From Sipunculus nudus (Eukaryota; Annelida; Sipuncula; Golfingiida; Sipunculidae), in contig CM049310.1 in assembly GCA_026874595.1 (NCBI GenBank), positions 84,667,056 through 84,731,055 of the forward strand: a stretch of DNA of 64,000 nucleotides, read 5' to 3'. Numbering within the stretch: position 1 is the stretch's first letter; the number at the start of each line of letters is the position of its first letter. The notes below the pieces were generated by a model, which worked only from the letters and a program-made list of their open reading frames with translations, searched no databases and was not told where the DNA came from. The position numbers and the translations under genes were made by a program. Below are positions 12,993 through 57,881 of the stretch, one piece after another.

Positions 12993-15716
12993 ACACTGTG
13001 GTTGTCGTTTTATTTGCGAAGGTTTCAAATTCACAAAATTCATGATAAAGTTATTATCGCAAAAATAAAATCCTTGTGAATATGAAGTCAGGTTGAAGAA
13101 GACAAAATTGAAAGGTTAACAACTGAAATTTAAAATAAATAATAATAAATCTTGTATGTTCAAAGATTGCTTCCTATTGTAAATGATATCAGATCATTCA
13201 AATCATTGTCATTAATGAACAATAACTGTATCTCACTGGATATTCCTTTGGGTACTAGTATTAAGATTTTGTGTACATATTATTTGATTAAATAAAATCA
13301 TATAATAACTAGATATTTCTTGGCACCGCAGGTGCCATAGTATCCCCAGACAATTAATCCCCCCCCCCCTTTAAGAATAGGCCCCCCATCTTCAGCAACA
13401 ATTAATATCAGACCACACTCATAGAAAAGGTCATTCTCATACAAAAGGTCATGATCCAAATTTCAATATTCATCATCCCCTAACCCATGTCTATGTATAT
13501 GCAAGAAATCTGTCCATTAGTTTTTGACTTATAATGCTCACAATACTGTTAAGTGGCAATGATGGGGTATTAAACGGCACAAAAACAAGTAAAAGAATAA
13601 CAGGTGGCACCACCTGTTTCCCGTACATGACAACACTATCCAAGATCTTCGTTCAAGTTGATTTTTGGACCAATCAATGCATCCCTTAATGAGAAATTAA
13701 TGATTTTGTGTGATTTTCACCATATATGGCAATATTCAAGGTCAAGGCCACTCATTGGAAAGGTCATGACCCCTATTCAAATAAACATTATCCTATAACC
13801 CATATCCATGTATATGCATAATATGAAAGAAATTTGTCCATTAGTTTTTGACTTATAATGCTCACAGTACTGATAAATGGCAATGATGGGGTATTAAACG
13901 GCACAAAACAAGTAAAAGAATAACAGGTGGCGCCACCTGTTTCCGGTACATGACAATACTTTCCAAGATCTTCGAACATGTTGATTTTTGGACCAATGCA
14001 TGCATCCCTTATTGAGATATTAATGATTTTGTGTAATTTTCACCATATATGGCAATATTCAAGGTCAAGGCCACTCTAATAGGAAAGGTCATGACCCCAA
14101 TTTATATATGCATCATCCCATAACCCATGTCTATGTATATGCATAATATGAAAGAAATCTGTCCATTTGTTTTTGACTTATAATGCTCAGAGGTTATAAA
14201 TGTACCGTTAAGTGGCAATGATGGGGTATTAAACGGCACGAAAAAAGTAAAAGAATAACAGGTGGAGCCACCTGTTTCCGGTTCATGACATTACTATCCA
14301 AGATCTTCGGTCAAGTTGATTTTTGGACCAAAGCATGCATCCCTTATTGAGAAATTAATGATTTTGTGTGATTTTCACCATATATGGCAATATTCAAGGT
14401 CAAGGCCACTCATTGGAAAGGTCATGACCCCTATTCAAATAAACATTATCCTATAACCAATATCCATGTATATGCATAATATGAAAGAAATTTGTCCATT
14501 AGTTTTTGACTTATAATGCTCACAGTACTGATAAATGGCAATGATGGGGTATTAAACGGCACAAAACAAGTAAAAGAATTACAGGTGGCGCCACCTGTTT
14601 CCGGTACATGACAATACTTTCCAAGATCTTCGAACATGTTGATTTTTGGACCAATGCATGCATCCCTTATTGAGATAATAATGATTTTGTGTAATTTTCA
14701 CCATATATGGCAATATTCAAGGTCAAGGCCACTCTAATAGGAAAGGTCATGACCCCAATTTATATATACATCATCCCATAACCCATGTCTATGTATATGC
14801 ATAATATGAAAGAAATCTGTCCATTAGTTTTTGACTTATAATGCTCACAGGTTATAAATGTACTGTTAAGTGGCAATGATGGGGTATTAAACGGCACGAA
14901 AACAAGTAAAAGAATAACAGGTGGCGCCACCTGTTTCCGGTCATGACATTACTATCCAAGATCTTCGGTCAAGTTGATTTTTGGACCAATGCATGCATCC
15001 CTTTTTGAGAAATTAATGATTTTGTGTGATTTTCACCATATATGGCAATATTCAAGGTCAAGGCCACTCTCATAGGAAAGGTCATGACCCCAATTTAAAT
15101 AAACATCATCCCATAACCCATATCTATGTATTTGCATAATATGAAAGAAATCTGTCCATTAGTTTTTGACTTATAATGCTCACAGTACTGTCAATTAGCA
15201 ATTCTGGGGATATTAAACGGCATGAAAACAAGTAAAGAATAATAGGTGGCGCCACCAGTTTCTGAAACAAGACAACCCTATCCATGATCTTCGATCAAAT
15301 TGATTTTGAGATCAATCCATGCAAGTTTTCTTGAGATATTTAAGAATTTTTGTGATTTTCCCCAAAATTGAACCTATTCAAGGTCAAGGTCACTCTCCTA
15401 GTTGAGGTCATGACCTCATTTAAATAGGCGTCGTCCTCTTACCCATATCTATACATATACCAAGTTTGGTAAAGATCCGTGAAATATTTTTTGAGTTATT
15501 GTGTCCAAAAGAAATCTCTGCGGCGGCGGCGGCGGGACCGTGCCTAAACCATAGTATCTCCAGACTATGTCTGGCGATACAATGACTTTCTTTGTGTAGG
15601 TTCTTATTATGTTTAAAAGTTACGAGTTTGTGAAAATGGGATCCTTGTGAATCTATGAAAATAAATGAGAATCACAAAAAAATTTAAACCCCGCAAATTT
15701 TAAGCCAACCACAGTA
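12993..15716. mobile_element. MITE split by an inserted repeat array
   Basis: The left edge at 12,993 reads ACACTGTGGTTGTCG and the right edge at 15,716, read on the minus strand, reads TACTGTGGTTGGCTTA. Both continue into matching TTTGCG...TTTAAA/TTTCAAA stretches and a shared ATCCTTGTGAAT word. The two arms of one inverted-repeat element are therefore separated by about 2.3 kb of unrelated tandem repeats. Confidence 0.6.
13319..15590. repeat. six-copy array of about 330-bp units with a GGTGGCGCCACC palindrome
   Basis: The palindrome or a one-base variant recurs near 13,602, 13,925, 14,262, 14,582, 14,919 and 15,245. Odd and even copies differ, so the true period is a 658-bp dimer: the stretch at 13,788 to 13,979 recurs almost unchanged at 14,446 to 14,637. 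The units also hold TTCAAGGTCAAGGCCACTC. The block ends in a CGG run and CATAGTATCTCCAGACTATG, a small hairpin. Confidence 0.9.
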
Positions 15717-36975: not shown

Positions 36976-37482
36976 CAGTTCATTATGGTCAACATCAAAT
37001 TAGTAAAATTAGGAAATAGTTGATTTCCATCATTCAAACCATGTGGCATAGAGTTTTCCCTGCATTCTCCTGTTTTACTTGGATACTTACCATGGCTATC
37101 AGTTCTACAAGCAGCATCTTAAAGTCTGTTTAAATGGCTTAGATAGCTGTACTTGTTTGACTGCAAAGATTTGTATGTACAGTTCTACTCAAGAACTGAA
37201 TGTTTTCAATAATTATTAAATATTTAACAGTAACCTAGAAAACATGACTGTGCAGTGAAAACAAATATAGGAAAATATAAGAGATTAAGACCTAAATGCT
37301 GGGAAAAATAGGAAATTATAATTTATATGAGACACTTTTTTTTTCATCGGAAAATGTAGGAATGTATAGGAAACATAGGAGTTGTCAAAAACCCTGATAA
37401 CCATATAAAACAAAATCAGACACCATACTAGAAAACATATAATTCAGTGAAAGCATCATTAAAATTTGGAGCAATTCCTTAC

Positions 37483-37706
37483 CCACTGATTGGGTCCAGC
37501 ACAATATCTATGGGATCGTCCAGGCCGGAGAGGACCGTCCGGCAGATATCTGACCTGAGTCGACATGCCCGGATTGCCCCCGCCTTGGCCTGAATGTAGT
37601 AGAGGTTTCCTCCAATCCAGTCCACGGCCACCCCCATCACCTTACCCTGCTGAGTCAGCATAATCAGCTTCTTGCCCTCTGCCGCAGATAAATAACGTAC
37701 CCTGCC
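37483..37706 (-). CDS. LRP-like receptor: second propeller, exon whose 5' end is tandemly copied
   Basis: The acceptor TTTGACAG/GGCAGG (phase 0) and donor AGTGG/GTAAGG give 224 bases. The frame reads GRVRYLSAAEGKKLIMLTQ, then VMGVAVDWIGGNLYYIQ, IRACRLRSD and LDDPIDIVLDPISG. LYYIQ replaces YWTD. An alternative AG four bases further in would break the phase. The first 31 bases and the acceptor are repeated about eleven more times upstream, up to 38,575; only this copy continues into a propeller blade. Confidence 0.94.
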
Positions 37707-38575
37707 CTGTCAAATATGTTTCACAGATGACAGTTATTATTCAGCTCCTTACCCTCCGCCCCAGATAAATAACGTACGTACCCTGCCCTGTCAAATATGT
37801 TTCACAGATGTCAGTTATTAATCAGCTCCTTATACCCTCTGCCGCAGATAAATAACATACCCTGCCCTGTCAAATATGTTTCACAGATGTCAGTTATTAA
37901 TCAGTTCCTTACCCTCCGCCGCAGATAAATAACGTACGTACCCTGCCCTGTCAAATATGTTTCACAGATGTCAGTTATTAATCAGCTTCTTGCCCTCTGC
38001 CGCAGATAAATAACGTACCCTGCCCTGTCAAATATGTTTCACAGATGTCAGTTATTATTCAGCTCCTTACCCTCCGCCGCAGATAAATAACGTACGTACC
38101 CTGCCCTGTCAAATATGTTTCACAGATGTCAGTTATTAATCAGCTCCTTATACCCTCTGCCGCAGATAAATAACATACCCTGCCCTGTCAAATATGTTTC
38201 ACAGATGTCAGTTAATAATCAGTTCCTTACCCTCCGCCGCAGATAAATAACGTACCCTGCCCTGTCAAATATGTTTCACAGATGTCAGTTATTAATCAGT
38301 TCCTTACCCTCCGCCGCAGATAAATAACGTACCCTGCAATGTCAAAAATGTTTCACAGATGTCAGTTATTAATCAGCTCCTTACCCTCCGCCGCAGATAA
38401 ATAACGTACCCTGCCCTGTCAAATATGTTTCACAGATGTCAGTTATTAATCAGTTCCTTACTCTCCGCCGCAGATAAATAACGTACCCTGCCCTGTCAAA
38501 TATGTTTCACAGATGTCAGTTATTAATCAGTTACTTACCCTCCGCTGCAGATAAATAGCCTACCCTGACATGTCA
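37683..38575 (-). repeat. tandem array of about twelve copies of a splice acceptor plus exon start
   Basis: The unit is about 77 bp (81 bp where an extra ACGT is present) and repeats from the real exon start at 37,706 up to 38,575. Each unit contains the TTTGACAG acceptor, the copied exon start encoding the RYLSAAEG segment, and a short intron piece with CAGTTATTAATCAG. In most copies the exon's GGCAAGAAG has become GGTAAGGAG, a 5' splice-site-like sequence. One unit near 37,985 keeps the exon-like GGCAAGAAG. The last unit (about 38,536) is the most diverged. Confidence 0.95.
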
Positions 38576-39589
38576 AATAGTATTGGTGTTCCAACTGATT
38601 GATTATATCAATGATTGTTTGTTTTCTTTCATAAATGATATAATTTGTTGCATTTTTGCATAATCGATCACAAACAATTATGTTTTTAACAAACTTACAT
38701 CACAATGACTTTGAAATTTTTATTGTCAAGCCTTATTAGCCTTTTTAGATACATCCAGTCCACAAAGCTTATCATTTATATAGTCTGAACCAATATATAT
38801 ACCTGTTTGATCAATTAAAAATAAAAAACCTTGCACATAACTTAGATACCATGCTTGCTTTAAACTTCTTGTGCTAGGGTGGCCTCTAACCTCTCAAAAT
38901 TTCAAGTCACATGACTACCAATGTACATCCAAAGCTATATTATACAGATAAAATATTCTAATTCTGTCAGAGATATACAGGGCAGAGACATACATGGCAC
39001 AAAATCAGTAGCAAACAGCAATAAAAATGACCCTTGTGCAACAACTAATTGTCAACTTTTCTGCCGTTAACTTGACCTTTTTTAAAGAACAAAATTTACT
39101 CCTGTTAGGTATAATTCTATACAGCAGATTTCATGGTAATACAGGGGGTACATAAATAATCATTTAATAATCAGTCATCAGTCTTTTTTAATCTGTCAAT
39201 AAATGGACTTTATTTTACAACCATTCCTACCACCATCAAATATGTCACGCAGATATCAGTTATTGAATACCAAAGTTAATTTTTAGTGGCCATAAAAAAT
39301 CAATGACAGTAGATTAAAAAGTTATATTTCTACAGAATGCTTTATAATGGTGATGATTTTCTCTTAAATTTTCTGGGTTCAGGAGCAGACAATCCTATAA
39401 ACACTAATAAATGAATTTTAAATAACAGCACAAATCAATTCATATGCATCAACTGTTTCAAATAAAAGCAAAACTGTTTCATAAACTTCAAATAACCAAA
39501 CAGACCCTATCATATACTTCAAATAACTGACAGCATTAAACAGCTTTACTTCCTGTTTCTTTCAATCAAATTTGTCTACACAATATTAC
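38576..39589. other. intron between second-propeller exons
   Basis: AT-rich intron DNA between the array and the 39.6-kb exon. No repeat family or coding segment is recognised. Confidence 0.6.
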
Positions 39590-39750
39590 CCGTCCACTGT
39601 CCGCCCAGTAGAGGTCACCAGTGGCACCATGGAAATCCAGACCCATCACTCTCGCTTTCGATCCCATAGGAACATTAGTCATGTGGCGCTGGTCTATAGT
39701 CAGCTGACGGATTTCATTGTCTTGAGATACCAGCAAATAGGCAACTGGAT
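39590..39750 (-). CDS. LRP-like receptor: start of second YWTD propeller
   Basis: The acceptor is CTGTCCAG and the donor GGACGG/GTAATA; 161 bases, phase 1 in and phase 0 out. It opens DPVAYLLVSQDNEIRQL and ends with VMGLDFHGATGDLYWADSG, a near-perfect first blade (LYWAD). The intron after it (toward lower coordinates) ends in the 77-bp array of copied splice sites. Confidence 0.96.
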
Positions 39751-40439
39751 CTGGACAGGAGAGCAGAAATTTTTGTTTATAATTTAATTCCCCGCTATGA
39801 GAGCATACATATCTCTATAATAAAAACAGCACTTGCATTAAACATGCCATATACCAGTGTAGTGTTAAACAGATTATGCATCCTAAAAAGAATACTCATA
39901 TGTCATTGATAATCCTGATGGCACTGTTTCCTTGATATCATCAGAAATTGTACACTAAACTATATCCACTTTAGGTGAATATTATATTTCAATGGTGGAT
40001 TATATTTTGTCCTATATGAAGCAAAATCTTGAAAGGGCATCCTGTATGGTAATTACTCATTTTAAACCAACTTTTGTGAATTCTTTAAATTAATTAACTG
40101 TGAAAATCAGCAAAAATCTGGAGAGAAAGAGTTTTGGAAACACGCTAAGTAAATGGAATATGCATATTGCATTAAGAATGTCTGCTGTTAAACAAGTAAA
40201 TGTGGTGCTTTTGGAATCTGTAGCTCTTTAACAGGAGGAATCAGATGTCAGTATCACTAGCATGCATTACTAATGCATGGTTGTAATGAAGTCCTTTTTT
40301 GATCCTGAACCAAATAGTATAGGTACCTCATCTCTACAGGAATCTCATCTCTGCGTTAGATATATTACTCCATGGAGTGTAAGCATGGTGATGTTTATCA
40401 GCAGTAAAAGAAGCATAAAGACACAGAAACACTCATTTG

Positions 40440-46072: not shown

Positions 46073-47379
46073 CTGAAACATCACCATGTTAACATGATCA
46101 AGTCATGATAATGCTTTACACTTCATGAGATAACCTGGAACTAAAATTCTATAAGCAACTGAATAATTTAACAGATGGCCACCAGAGGTCTCTTCAGTAA
46201 ACACAAAACCACCTGTGCCACATCTGCTGGTCCATTTCCCCCTGTACCTATCAATGACTGGATTACCTCGTCACAATACATTTTATGGTAAAGTTGAACC
46301 TGCCTCATTAATAACCACTTAATACTGGTCCTGTAGTGGTCACATGACACAGGTTCTACCCTAGTTCTTTTTTATGGGTAAGGTTTCTGGTTAAAATTAT
46401 GACTATACCGTCAATTCCAATACAGATGGCAGGTGGCAAGATGTTGCAACGGATTAGACTTGAGGCAGTCTATTATTTTCAAAACAGGTAATTATGCAAT
46501 TTTCTCTTTCTGCCCTTTGTGCATAAAAAATATTTCCATTGTTTACAATCAAATGAGCACACAAAAATCAGGTGGGCAGAGTGGTGAAATTCACTGCAGT
46601 AGCTATTTACTTTTTAATAAAACAAGGACAAAATTATTACAGGACAAAATAATTAGAATGACAGTGGTAAATGTAAAAAATTAGGTAATAATCAATCTTA
46701 GTAGGAAAGAATGCTGCTATAACAGAGACCCAAATGTTTGATTATACTAATACTACAATTCCTAAAGGTTGAAAAAACTTGGTTCAGTTTATAAATGTGC
46801 ATGATTAAAAAATGGTGGGAATGATTATTAATGAGAAGATAGAACTTAAAACTTACAAAGATTTTTAGTTCCCTGAATGTGACCAGTTTTTTCTAGTTTT
46901 CTCCAGTCTAATCAGTTTTCCAGGAAACTTTCTCTATATTCCAGGACACATACTCAGAAAAGCATGGAACAAGAGTAACTCATGAGATTTGCATGTTCAC
47001 TTTCAGTCACACATGCAAGTGCATCACTGATACTAGAGAATGCAAAAACAAGTGACCCATGGGTCATGATGCTCAGCTGACTGGGAAGAGATTCGCAAAA
47101 GGAAAAATTTTATCATCAGAATGGTAGTAAATACTCATTCAACTGAAGCATCAAACAGATTAACCAACAGGCCAAGATTAAGTCTGTATTTATATATCTC
47201 AAAAATAGAGAAAAAATGTGTAAACTTTAAAAACTAGAATATGGGTAGCCGACAAGTGACTATGTGTATCCGCTTAAATCAGAGTGGAACGGGTGAAGTG
47301 AGGCATGGATTAAGTGGCAGGGGAAATACAGTGAGGTATGTTGCATATTATTAGCATGAATGTCTGCAGCCTAAATGTG
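46073..47379. other. intron with a small MITE-like remnant
   Basis: At 46,290 to 46,363, GTTGAACCTGCCTCATTAATA with AAGTG-like words and ACAGGTTCTACCC resembles a minimal member of the GTGGTC MITE family. The rest shows nothing. Confidence 0.45.
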
Positions 47380-50300
47380 TATGTAGGTTGTGCCACCTAC
47401 AACAAATCCAGAAAGCTGTTCAAGTTGTATACATATGCGAAATTTTAGGCAGAAAAGTGAAACAACTACATGTATATGATTGATTTTAGCCCAAGGCAGA
47501 CAGACAGACGCTGTGCAAAAATGGTTGCAGGTGGCCCCTCCAGTTTTGTGTATGATAAAGACCTATGTGAGATCTAAAAATATACACAATTTTGGCCCAA
47601 TCGGTCAAATGGTTCCTGAGATTTAAGCTTGGATGTGTGCAGCGTTAAATAAAATTGAGGTGGCGCCACCTGTCATCAAATCAAGAATGTATAAACCTGC
47701 AAAATTTTAGGCAGTTTTATCAAACAACTACAGAGTAATGAGTGATTTTAGGCCTCGGCAGACAGACAGACGCTGTGCAAAATGTGCAAAAATGGTTACA
47801 GGTGGCCCCTCCAGTTCTGTGTATGATAAAGACCTATGTGAGATCTATACACATGCAAAATTTTGGCATAATCGTTCAAACGGTTCCCGAGATATGAGCT
47901 TGGATGTCTGCAGCGTAAACTAGAATGTAGGTGGCGCCACCTGTCATCAAATCAAGAAAGCTATCCAGGATGTATAAAGCTGCAAAATTTTAGGCAGATA
48001 CGTCAAACCACTGCCCAGATATGAGTGACATTATCCCATGGCAGACAAACAGACAGATGCTATGCAAAAATGGTTGCAGGTGGCCCGTCCAGTTCTGTGT
48101 ATGATAAAGACCTATGTGAGATCTAAACACATGCACAATTTTGGCCCAATCCGTCAAATGGTTCCTGAAATATGAGCTTGGATGTGTTCAGCGTTAACTA
48201 GAATGTAGGTGGCGCCACCTGTCATAAAATCAAGAAAGCTGTCCAGGATGTATAAACCTGCAAAATTTTAGGCAGTTATGTCAAACCACTACAGAGAAAT
48301 GAGTGATTTTAGGCCATGGCAGACAAACAGACAAGACGCTGTGCAAAATGTGCAAAAATGGTTGCAGGTGGCCCCTCCAGTTTTGTGTATAATAAAGACC
48401 TAAGTGAGATCTATACACATGCAAAATTATGGCCCAATCGTTCAAACGGTTCCCGAGATATGAGCTTGGATGTCTGCAGCGTAACCTATAATGTAGGTGG
48501 TGCCACCTGTCATAAAATCAAGAAATCTATCCAGGATGTATTAAACTGCAAAATGTTAGGCAGATATGTCAAACCACTGCCGAGAAATGAGTGACATTAT
48601 CCCACGGCAGACAAATAGACGGACGCTGTGCAAAAATGGTTGCAGGTGGCGCCACCAAGTTTTGTGTATGATAAAGAGCTATGTGAGATCTATACACATG
48701 CAAAATTTTGGCCCAATCAGTCAAACCGTTCCCAAGATATGATCTTGGATATCATCAGCGTGAACGTGAATGTAGGTGGCCCCACCTGTCATAAAATCAA
48801 GAAAGCTATCCAGGATGTATACCCATGCTGAATTTCAGTTTAATTAGTCAATTCACTGCAGAGATATGAGTGATTTTAACTAAAGGCAGATGAACAGATG
48901 GACACTGTGCAAACATGGTTACAGGTGGCGCCACCATTTTTTGTGTATGTTATAAAGCTATCTAAGGGCTACATTTGTATAAATTTTATTTCCTGATCGG
49001 TCAAACGGTTCCTGTGATATGAGCTTGGATGTCATCAGCGTGAACGTGAATGTAGGTGGCACCACCTGTCATAAAATCAAGAAAGCTATCCAGGATGTAA
49101 ACGCATGCCGAATTTCAGGTGAATTAGTCAATTCACTGGAGAGATATGAGTGATTTTAACCCAAGGCAGATGAACAGATGGACACTGTGCAAACATGGTT
49201 ACAGGTGGCGCCACCATGTTTTGTGTATGTTATAAAGCTAAGGGCTACATATGTATAAATTTTATTTCCTGATCGGTCAAACGGTTCCTGAGATATGTGC
49301 TTGGATGTCTGCAGCGTGAACGTGAATGTAGGTGCCTCCACCTGTCATAAAATCAAGAAAGCTATCCAAGATGTATACGCATGCCAAATTTCAGGTGAAT
49401 TAGTCAATTCACTGCAGAGATATGAGTGATTTTAACCCAAGGCAGATGAACAGATGGACACTGTGCAAACAAGGTTACAGGTGGCGCCACCATTTTTTGT
49501 GTATGTTATAAAGCTATCCAAGGGCTACATTTGTATAAATTTTATTTCCTGATTGGTCAAATGGTTCCCGAGATATGAGCTTGGATTTCTGCAGCATGAA
49601 CGTGAATGTAGGTGGCGCCACCTGTCATAAAATCAAGAAAGCTATCCAGGATGTATACGCATGCCGAATTTCAGGTGAATTAGTCAATTTACTGCAGAGA
49701 TATAAGTGATTTTAACCCAAGGCAGATGAACAGATGGACACTGTGCAAACATGGTTACAGGTGGCGCCACCATTTTTTGTGTATGTTATAAAGCTATCCA
49801 AGGGCTACATTTGTATAAATTTTATTTCCTGATCGGTCAAACGGTTCCCGAGATATGAGGGTTTATGTGTGGAAACAGACGCACAAATGGACGCTGGGCA
49901 GAGAGGAAAGGTCAGAGGTCAACCCAAATTGGTTAGGCACCAGTTCACGTGTGACCCGATAATTGGTGTAAGTTTCGGAAAAATTGTTTAGTAGCTATTG
50001 AGATACTGGAGTTTTTGTATCAAATTTTCCATTATTCTGGGGGGTACTTTGGGGCCCCATAGCTCAAAGGATAAGGGTAACAGAGACCTAATTTCTGGTT
50101 TCCATGGAGACTTTTCATAGTTCTCTCAGTGTGTTGAGAATTAAGATTCTAGGTCCAGTCGTTATGATTTGTGCCCTGTTAACAGCTGTTCACATTTTTA
50201 AAGGTCTCAAAAATAGAGGAAAAAATCGTAAAAATTCGAACAATACAGGTGGCGCCACCAGTCTGCAGGAACTGATGGAACATCTCATGATCAATATGTA

Positions 50301-56960: not shown

Positions 56961-57148
56961 CCTCTTTCTGCTGGCCTTGCTGGACTGACACAATCCCAAA
57001 CACCTTGCGGGATGATGGCCATAGTTGGATCTTGCCGATTTCACCAGATCCTGGGATATTTGTGTAATGTATCTCATTACTGCCATGTCCAGTCCAATAC
57101 AATGTTCCTTTATGAATGGCCATACTGTATATACCGAATCCCCAGTCC
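56961..57148 (-). CDS. LRP-like receptor: first propeller, last blades
   Basis: The acceptor is TTTACAG and the donor AGAGG/GTTTGT (phase 2 in, phase 1 out). The frame starts DWGFGIYSMAIHKGTLYWTG, with LYWTG in the blade position, and ends KVFGIVSVQQGQQKE, the closing strand that normally leads into an EGF module. The acceptor lies at the edge of a 33-bp tandem array that repeats this same splice site (see the repeat at 57,149 to 57,290). A different reading frame also runs through array and exon but is not the coding one, because it breaks the fit to both neighbours. Confidence 0.92.
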
Positions 57149-57290
57149 CTGTAAAGACAAAACGCACCAAATCACTCGTCTTTGTAAGGACAAAACATAT
57201 TAAATCCCTGACCTCTGTAGAGACAAATTGCACCAAATCCCTAGTCTTTGTTAGGACATAATGCATCAAATCCTCAGTCCCTGTAAAGAC
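57149..57290 (-). repeat. 33-bp tandem repeat containing the splice acceptor
   Basis: Four intronic 33-bp units plus a fifth that runs into the exon at 57,148. Units begin GTCTTTACAG or GTCCTTACAA and continue with a sequence resembling the exon start (GGACTGAGGATTTG against GGACTGGGGATTCG). Units 1, 3 and 5 keep a usable AG. Using units 1 or 3 as acceptor would reach a stop in the coding frame, so only the last is expected to work. Confidence 0.9.
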
Positions 57291-57881
57291 AAAATTGTAC
57301 CCCCTCCTACAGTCTTAGGCTTAATAAATCTAACACAACAGTCTTATCTATTTTCCTCCTTTCTTACTCAAGTTTGCCCATTCAGTTTTCATGACTAAGG
57401 CTATAACAATAATGTATCTTACAACACAGACAAGTAACGTGAAATACTGATAATGATTTGATACTCAGTATGATACACAAATGAAAATTTCCAATGGTGT
57501 TTCGCCTTAAATGCTTTACATGGTGCACTCAGTGACACAATGTGCCGGAGTGAAAAAGAACAGCATTATCATTCATGTGATGTCAGTGTGCTTAGTAACT
57601 AACCATCCCTAAATGACAACATTGTGAAAATAGTTACTCTGCAAGCTTAGTTGAGTTGAAAACATGCATGGCTGTTCAATAAAAATATTATGAACTGGCT
57701 GGGTTGGTACTGCCTACAGGTATTGCCGATGGGCCTCAGGCTGACATACCAACCTCAGGCCAATTACAAAGGCAATATAGAATAAGCTGGTTAATAACAC
57801 ATGTAAAGGTGCATGTGTGAGTCAGCCCTAGCTATGACTTGAAAAATGGCCAATAACCGGTAATTTATTTAAAATACATAC

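Follow-up and report, generated by a model that had tools for sequence, protein, structure and literature searches.

Minisatellites that span an exon boundary and repeat its AG and GT signals have been described from amphioxus as "mirage" minisatellites; the sections of the two reports used here place them in the globin genes BflGb6 and BflGb9 (PMC3087553), add PGBD5, and name Adh (Adh3) and troponin C (PMC3902484). BflGb6 carries six or three units of 150-160 bp in two haplotypes, and splicing was seemingly undisturbed according to the authors' reverse transcription PCR (PMC3087553). Judging from similarly partial accounts, tandem repeats also occur at human exon-intron boundaries (PMC2812944), introns have been gained via tandem duplication of segments with a proto-splice site (PMC2891723), and detained introns, such as that of OGT, contain decoy exons (PMC12017769). 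In searches of open-licence papers for molluscs or bivalves and for repeated splice sites in general, no mollusc case was recognised from the titles and abstracts returned. Here we analyzed a 64,000-nucleotide stretch of the Sipunculus nudus genome (contig CM049310.1, positions 84,667,056 to 84,731,055; hereafter the window, to which positions refer), in which a tandem array of eleven intronic units stands before an exon of a minus-strand gene for an LDL-receptor-related (LRP-like) protein. The array is most likely a further, neutral case of the known mirage kind.

Tandem Repeats Finder resolved the array at 37,661-38,579 with a period of 77 bp (11.7 copies, 91% matches) or 318 bp (2.9 copies, 94% matches), bearing out the claim of an initial annotation that tandem units precede the exon at 37,706 (exon E2, Table 1). 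Cut at the acceptor, the eleven decoy units, lettered a to k in the direction of transcription, measure 77 bp (a, b, c, d, e, and h), 79 bp (f and j), or 81 bp (g, i, and k) and are composed of ~31 nucleotides (nt) of the intron end and 46 nt of the exon start, copied up to GCTGATTA. The annotation was right in placing the 3' splice site and the exon start within the unit, although the copied exon part comprises 46 rather than 31 bases, 31 being the distance to the donor-like GT. Its count of about eleven copies of one acceptor holds for the units but not for the first AG, which is present in nine of them and lost in a and d; a second AG, 5 nt further, is found in all 12 copies. The donor-like GT that it ascribed to most copies was recovered as GTAAG after AGG or AGA in eight of the 11 units (a, b, c, d, e, g, i, and k), f and j having GTATAAG and h the GCAAG of the exon itself.

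Aligning the units revealed the suspected homogenisation. Unit j repeats f without change, k departs from g by two substitutions, and a 207-bp stretch recurs 318 bp downstream with two mismatches. This turnover involves the exon start as well, because unit h equals it over 47 nt and the 207-bp copy reaches into the exon. The observed similarity is consistent with recent copying or conversion of a four-unit block extending into the exon, its direction being presumed. A genome search with a 100-base query from the array returned 12 matches, all within the array, and a dispersed repeat was accordingly rejected, within the scope of a search that skips very common words.

The array thus resembles the amphioxus mirages, as far as these are described in the sources cited, in three respects: the repeats take in the boundary of the neighbouring exon (the intron end with the first 46 exon bases, and unit h), AG and GT signals are kept in many but not all copies, and the units evolve in concert. 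It differs from them in its non-lancelet host, which has a far larger genome than amphioxus, in its eleven extra units of 77-81 bp versus the six or three of 150-160 bp in BflGb6, in the exact copy of the exon start inside a 318-bp higher-order block, and in being known from the sequence of one haplotype. With the human boundary repeats and the duplication-born introns, as summarized in their reports, it shares a tandem duplication that multiplies potential splice signals and may yield new introns; in contrast to these, the copied segment already carries an old intron end, its units read AGGGT, not AGGT, and use of a new intron is not evident. Pseudo-exon-like units within an intron also recall the decoy exons of the OGT type, whereas here eleven repeated 26-35-nt units derive from the adjacent exon and rest on genomic sequence.

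The assignment of the gene relies on several exons. In the window, Pfam assigned the exons at 55.1, 53.7, 52.3, and 51.1 kb to the LDLa type and those at 58.1 and 36.4 kb to the YWTD type; the separate frames of the upstream exon E1, of E2, and of a candidate exon at 61.8 kb had no Pfam match. Joined through the acceptor at 37,706, E1 (39,757-39,590) and E2 meet in phase 0 with an open frame, and phmmer matched the joined sequence to LRP2, with whole-sequence E-values down to 6.8e-57 summed over many repeats (2.1e-5 for the best single stretch of the alignment shown), and to LRP4 (8.1e-38). The exon pair flanking a second array at 57,133-57,301 also matches LRP2 and LRP4. A protein search of the species' own genome returned E1, E2, and seven further places at 27-39% identity, and a paralogue as the source of the array was rejected on the basis of these distant matches.

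The consequences of decoy use were modelled unit by unit. Pseudo-exons bounded by a decoy acceptor and its donor measure 31 nt in b, c, e, f, h, and j and 35 nt in g, i, and k, as had been proposed, but 26 nt in a and d. With one decoy and its own donor the frame is open in none of the 11 cases, and reading through the donor leads to a stop after 9-17 codons, so that the predicted truncation or frameshift of the receptor holds in the model for any single decoy. The AAC-TGA stop that had been expected on read-through is encountered in b, c, e, and h; the other seven units stop after 9-14 codons. Adjacent units are separated by gaps of 46-51 nt. Exons of 26-35 nt and introns of ~46 nt are, in general, poor splicing substrates.

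We consider it likely that the array is a mirage-type minisatellite that grew mostly neutrally and that splicing continues to arrive at the real acceptor. It would have originated when 77 bp across the intron-exon boundary (~31 nt of intron, 46 nt of exon) were duplicated in tandem, and unequal exchange or slippage probably then added units until there were eleven extra ones. The exon start, as one of the repeats, would then have joined a duplication or conversion of the 318-bp block, leaving its exact copy as unit h if the presumed direction is correct. The spliceosome most likely skips the decoys and uses 37,706, since the pseudo-exons are presumably short for exon definition, introns would hardly be as small as the gaps between units, and 37,706 opens a full exon that has a donor of its own. 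A certain amount of unproductive splicing may involve the array, probably without function. Of the three outcomes left open by the initial annotation (harmless expansion, unproductive splicing, and length polymorphism), the first is favored because arrays occur at other exons, boundaries are hit no more often than array density predicts, and the amphioxus cases provide precedents.

Several properties of the splice signals weigh against this reading. They were scored with matrices built on 19 acceptors and 25 donors from this genome (the donors including that of locus L077, Table 1), which are small and rough. At 1.8, the real acceptor falls below 16 of the 19 training acceptors as scored by leave-one-out. 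It has six pyrimidines at -18 to -4, compared to 8-13 in the training acceptors, and the motif yTnAy expected of a branch site was not found between -45 and -15 of it. CTGAC is located at -24 or -29 in ten of the 11 decoys (b-k), whereas CTGTC precedes the real acceptor. Only 11 GTs on the minus strand of the window score at least 11.3, and seven of them belong to the array, one in each of seven units. The amphioxus report, in the part used here, likewise allows that such repeats could serve as cryptic sites (PMC3087553). Competition from the decoys would be expected from the signals alone, so that harmlessness is not self-evident.

The decoy signals themselves are uneven. The nine units with the first AG score 0.7 as acceptors, and the second AG scores 1.8 in a and 10.0 in d; overall, the decoys are roughly on a par with the weak real acceptor. 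Six pyrimidines are also counted in b, c, and e-k, and nine in a and d. As donors the units score 12.6 (a), 11.3 (c, d, e, g, i, and k), 8.2 (b), 6.4 (the GC of h), and 2.9 (f and j). The rank of these donors in the top 0.3% is partly circular, because the array's own GTs make up seven of the 11 top scorers, and the acceptor scores are rough, since the exon at 57,148 has a real acceptor that looks good yet reaches only -0.7. Exon E2 itself also contains strong donor-like sites, AGG/GTACGT at 6 nt into the exon (37,700, score 10.3) and a GT at 37,645 (11.3). The acceptor stretch (37,700-37,740, minus strand) forms a hairpin in all four copies folded, the real one and decoys k, h, and c (-10.4 versus -8.6 kcal/mol; z -2.6 to -3.1), and therefore the hairpin does not distinguish the real acceptor. 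A recursive splice site consists of AG followed immediately by GT. Recursive splicing through a zero-length exon was rejected, as no AGGT is present at the sites; the units read CAGGGCAGGGTACGT and GGAGGGTAAG, that is, AG-G-GT.

An alternative is that the decoys, some with strong donors, divert spliceosomes from the weak real acceptor, leading to transcript loss or intron retention, so that copy number tunes receptor expression. The weak acceptor lacking yTnAy, the CTGAC and strong donors of the decoys, and the unproductive outcome of every single decoy in the model all argue for it. However, the branch-motif difference is weak evidence, because yTnAy is also absent from six of the 19 training acceptors and present in 59% of random stretches, and the matrices carry the limits given above. 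Constraint on the decoy signals was tried as an explanation and rejected, exon-derived and intron-derived columns of the unit being similarly variable (12 of 46 versus 4 of 31, Fisher p = 0.25; p = 0.54 without the three columns variable in unit a only), which gives no sign of conservation of these signals. Normal splicing is moreover what the amphioxus report, in the part cited, gives for its precedents. We regard diversion by the decoys as unlikely. A more specific form is a copy-number-dependent splicing brake, in which the ten decoys that retain the branch motif (six also having a strong donor) oppose a real acceptor that lost it and minisatellite length sets the amount of functional receptor; this appears improbable, yet if it were true, recurring boundary minisatellites could commonly generate expression variation and new introns in this genome.

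The repeat could also exist with its copy number or order partly misassembled, and near-identical blocks such as the 207-bp stretch are typical sites of assembler error. Against such an artefact, the units follow a definite order and can be told apart by up to nine substitutions and by indels of 2 and 4 bp, the assembly comprises 153 contigs for 1.43 Gb, and comparable arrays are found at other loci; we give this explanation little credence. The least probable reading, to which we assign hardly any weight, is that pairs of pseudo-exons (e.g., 31 + 35 nt) are included in frame as alternative exons, adding ~22 residues to the propeller. In the model, joining two units gives an open, in-frame product in 30 of 55 combinations when intron lengths are disregarded, but the pseudo-exons are very short, and an insertion directly after YWADSGR would probably disturb the blade. 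The mirage-type minisatellite with mostly neutral growth remains the preferred explanation.

Arrays at exon boundaries were found elsewhere in the same gene and genome. The second boundary-spanning array of the LRP-like gene offers five acceptor positions including the real one, with AG in three of the five, and both AG-bearing decoys hit a stop in the frame of the exon. A third array, at 54.7 kb, lies inside an open frame, yet 37 nt past the likely donor. Among 12 window exons with domain, phmmer, or pattern evidence (the candidate at 61.8 kb being omitted for its missing Pfam match), two are crossed by an array at a boundary (2 of 24 boundaries). The genome was sampled at 84 loci (30 YWTD, 30 kinase, and 24 LDLa; 279,297 bases), counting arrays with a period of at least 12 and a score of at least 50 that touch the open frame of the match, and ten of the 84 loci had such an array. 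Ten loci, L037 and L051 among them, were inspected for boundary arrays. Clear boundary arrays were identified at two of the 54 YWTD and LDLa loci, among which at least two pairs represent the same exon: L012 on both sides and L077 on the donor side. None was observed at the 30 kinase loci, which are little informative because 27 of the 30 matches lie within open frames of at least 200 aa. The exon ends at L012, L077, and L083 were placed from AG/GT and domain ends; L012 and L077 share a strand of contig C16 at a distance of 65 kb and could be parts of a single gene.

Table 1. Coordinates of the array, its exons, and comparable arrays (window positions unless a contig is given).
Feature	Coordinates	Strand	Description
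Tandem array	37,661-38,579	-	11 intronic units (a from 38,570; k ends at 37,708) and the exon start
Unit a	38,494-38,570	-	Distal unit, greatest divergence; donor-like AGG/GTAAGT; without the first AG
Units f, g, and first 47 nt of h	37,979-38,185	-	Recur as j, k, and exon start 318 bp downstream, 2 mismatches in 207 bp
Unit h	37,949-38,025	-	Equals exon start over 47 nt plus the preceding 22 nt; GCAAG where others have GTAAG
Exon E1 (upstream)	39,590-39,757	-	Phase-0 end at CGG/GTAATA
Exon E2	37,482-37,706	-	Acceptor TTTGACAG/GGC at 37,706; first 46 bases (37,661-37,706) match the array units
Second boundary-spanning array, same gene	57,133-57,301	-	33-bp units (TTTACAG/GGACTG...); real acceptor at 57,148
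L012	G000:C16:63029705-63032827		YWTD exon; acceptor side 33 bp x 2.2-2.6; likely donor side 46 bp x 11.0, with GTAAGTT copies
L077	match G000:C16:63096232-63096339		Donor side 112 bp x 4.0; each copy an LDLa domain end plus GTAAGTC
L083	match G000:C16:62884517-62884624		33 bp x 18.7 array abutting a likely LDLa-exon acceptor; unit includes a T-rich stretch

Coverage by tandem arrays amounts to 10.8% for the window, 13.3% for its 33-63 kb part, and 7.2% for the sampled bases, and 3 of ~104 sampled boundaries are hit by them. Enrichment of arrays at exon boundaries was thus not seen in the window or in the sample, the share of boundaries hit (2 of 24 and 3 of ~104) being below coverage in both; because coverage (13.3% and 7.2%) exceeds this share, the boundary hits need no special cause. 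Mirages, described from lancelets in the reports cited, occur here in another animal, next to exons that belong to two or three genes, which suggests that genomes rich in minisatellites generally produce them as a by-product and thereby keep a standing supply of raw material for intron gain. The analysis adds to the initial annotation the 46-nt exon part, the 318-bp block that takes in the exon start, the differing branch motif, a further array within the LRP-like gene, and the name from the literature. Eleven near-identical acceptors before one real exon represent a natural experiment on splice-site choice with respect to signal strength, exon length, and position.

Two larger arrays are located in the window at 13,444-15,452 (335-bp units) and 47,349-49,785 (280-bp units), the second between exons of the LRP-like gene. 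Many LDLa matches with equal scores extend over ~270 kb at G000:C5:31.15-31.42 Mb, which suggests a tandem gene cluster. A search for an FMRFGK-type coding pattern, which pointed to a lophotrochozoan and gave no match for the reversed-pattern control, returned six matches within 350 bp on contig C14 and a seventh elsewhere.
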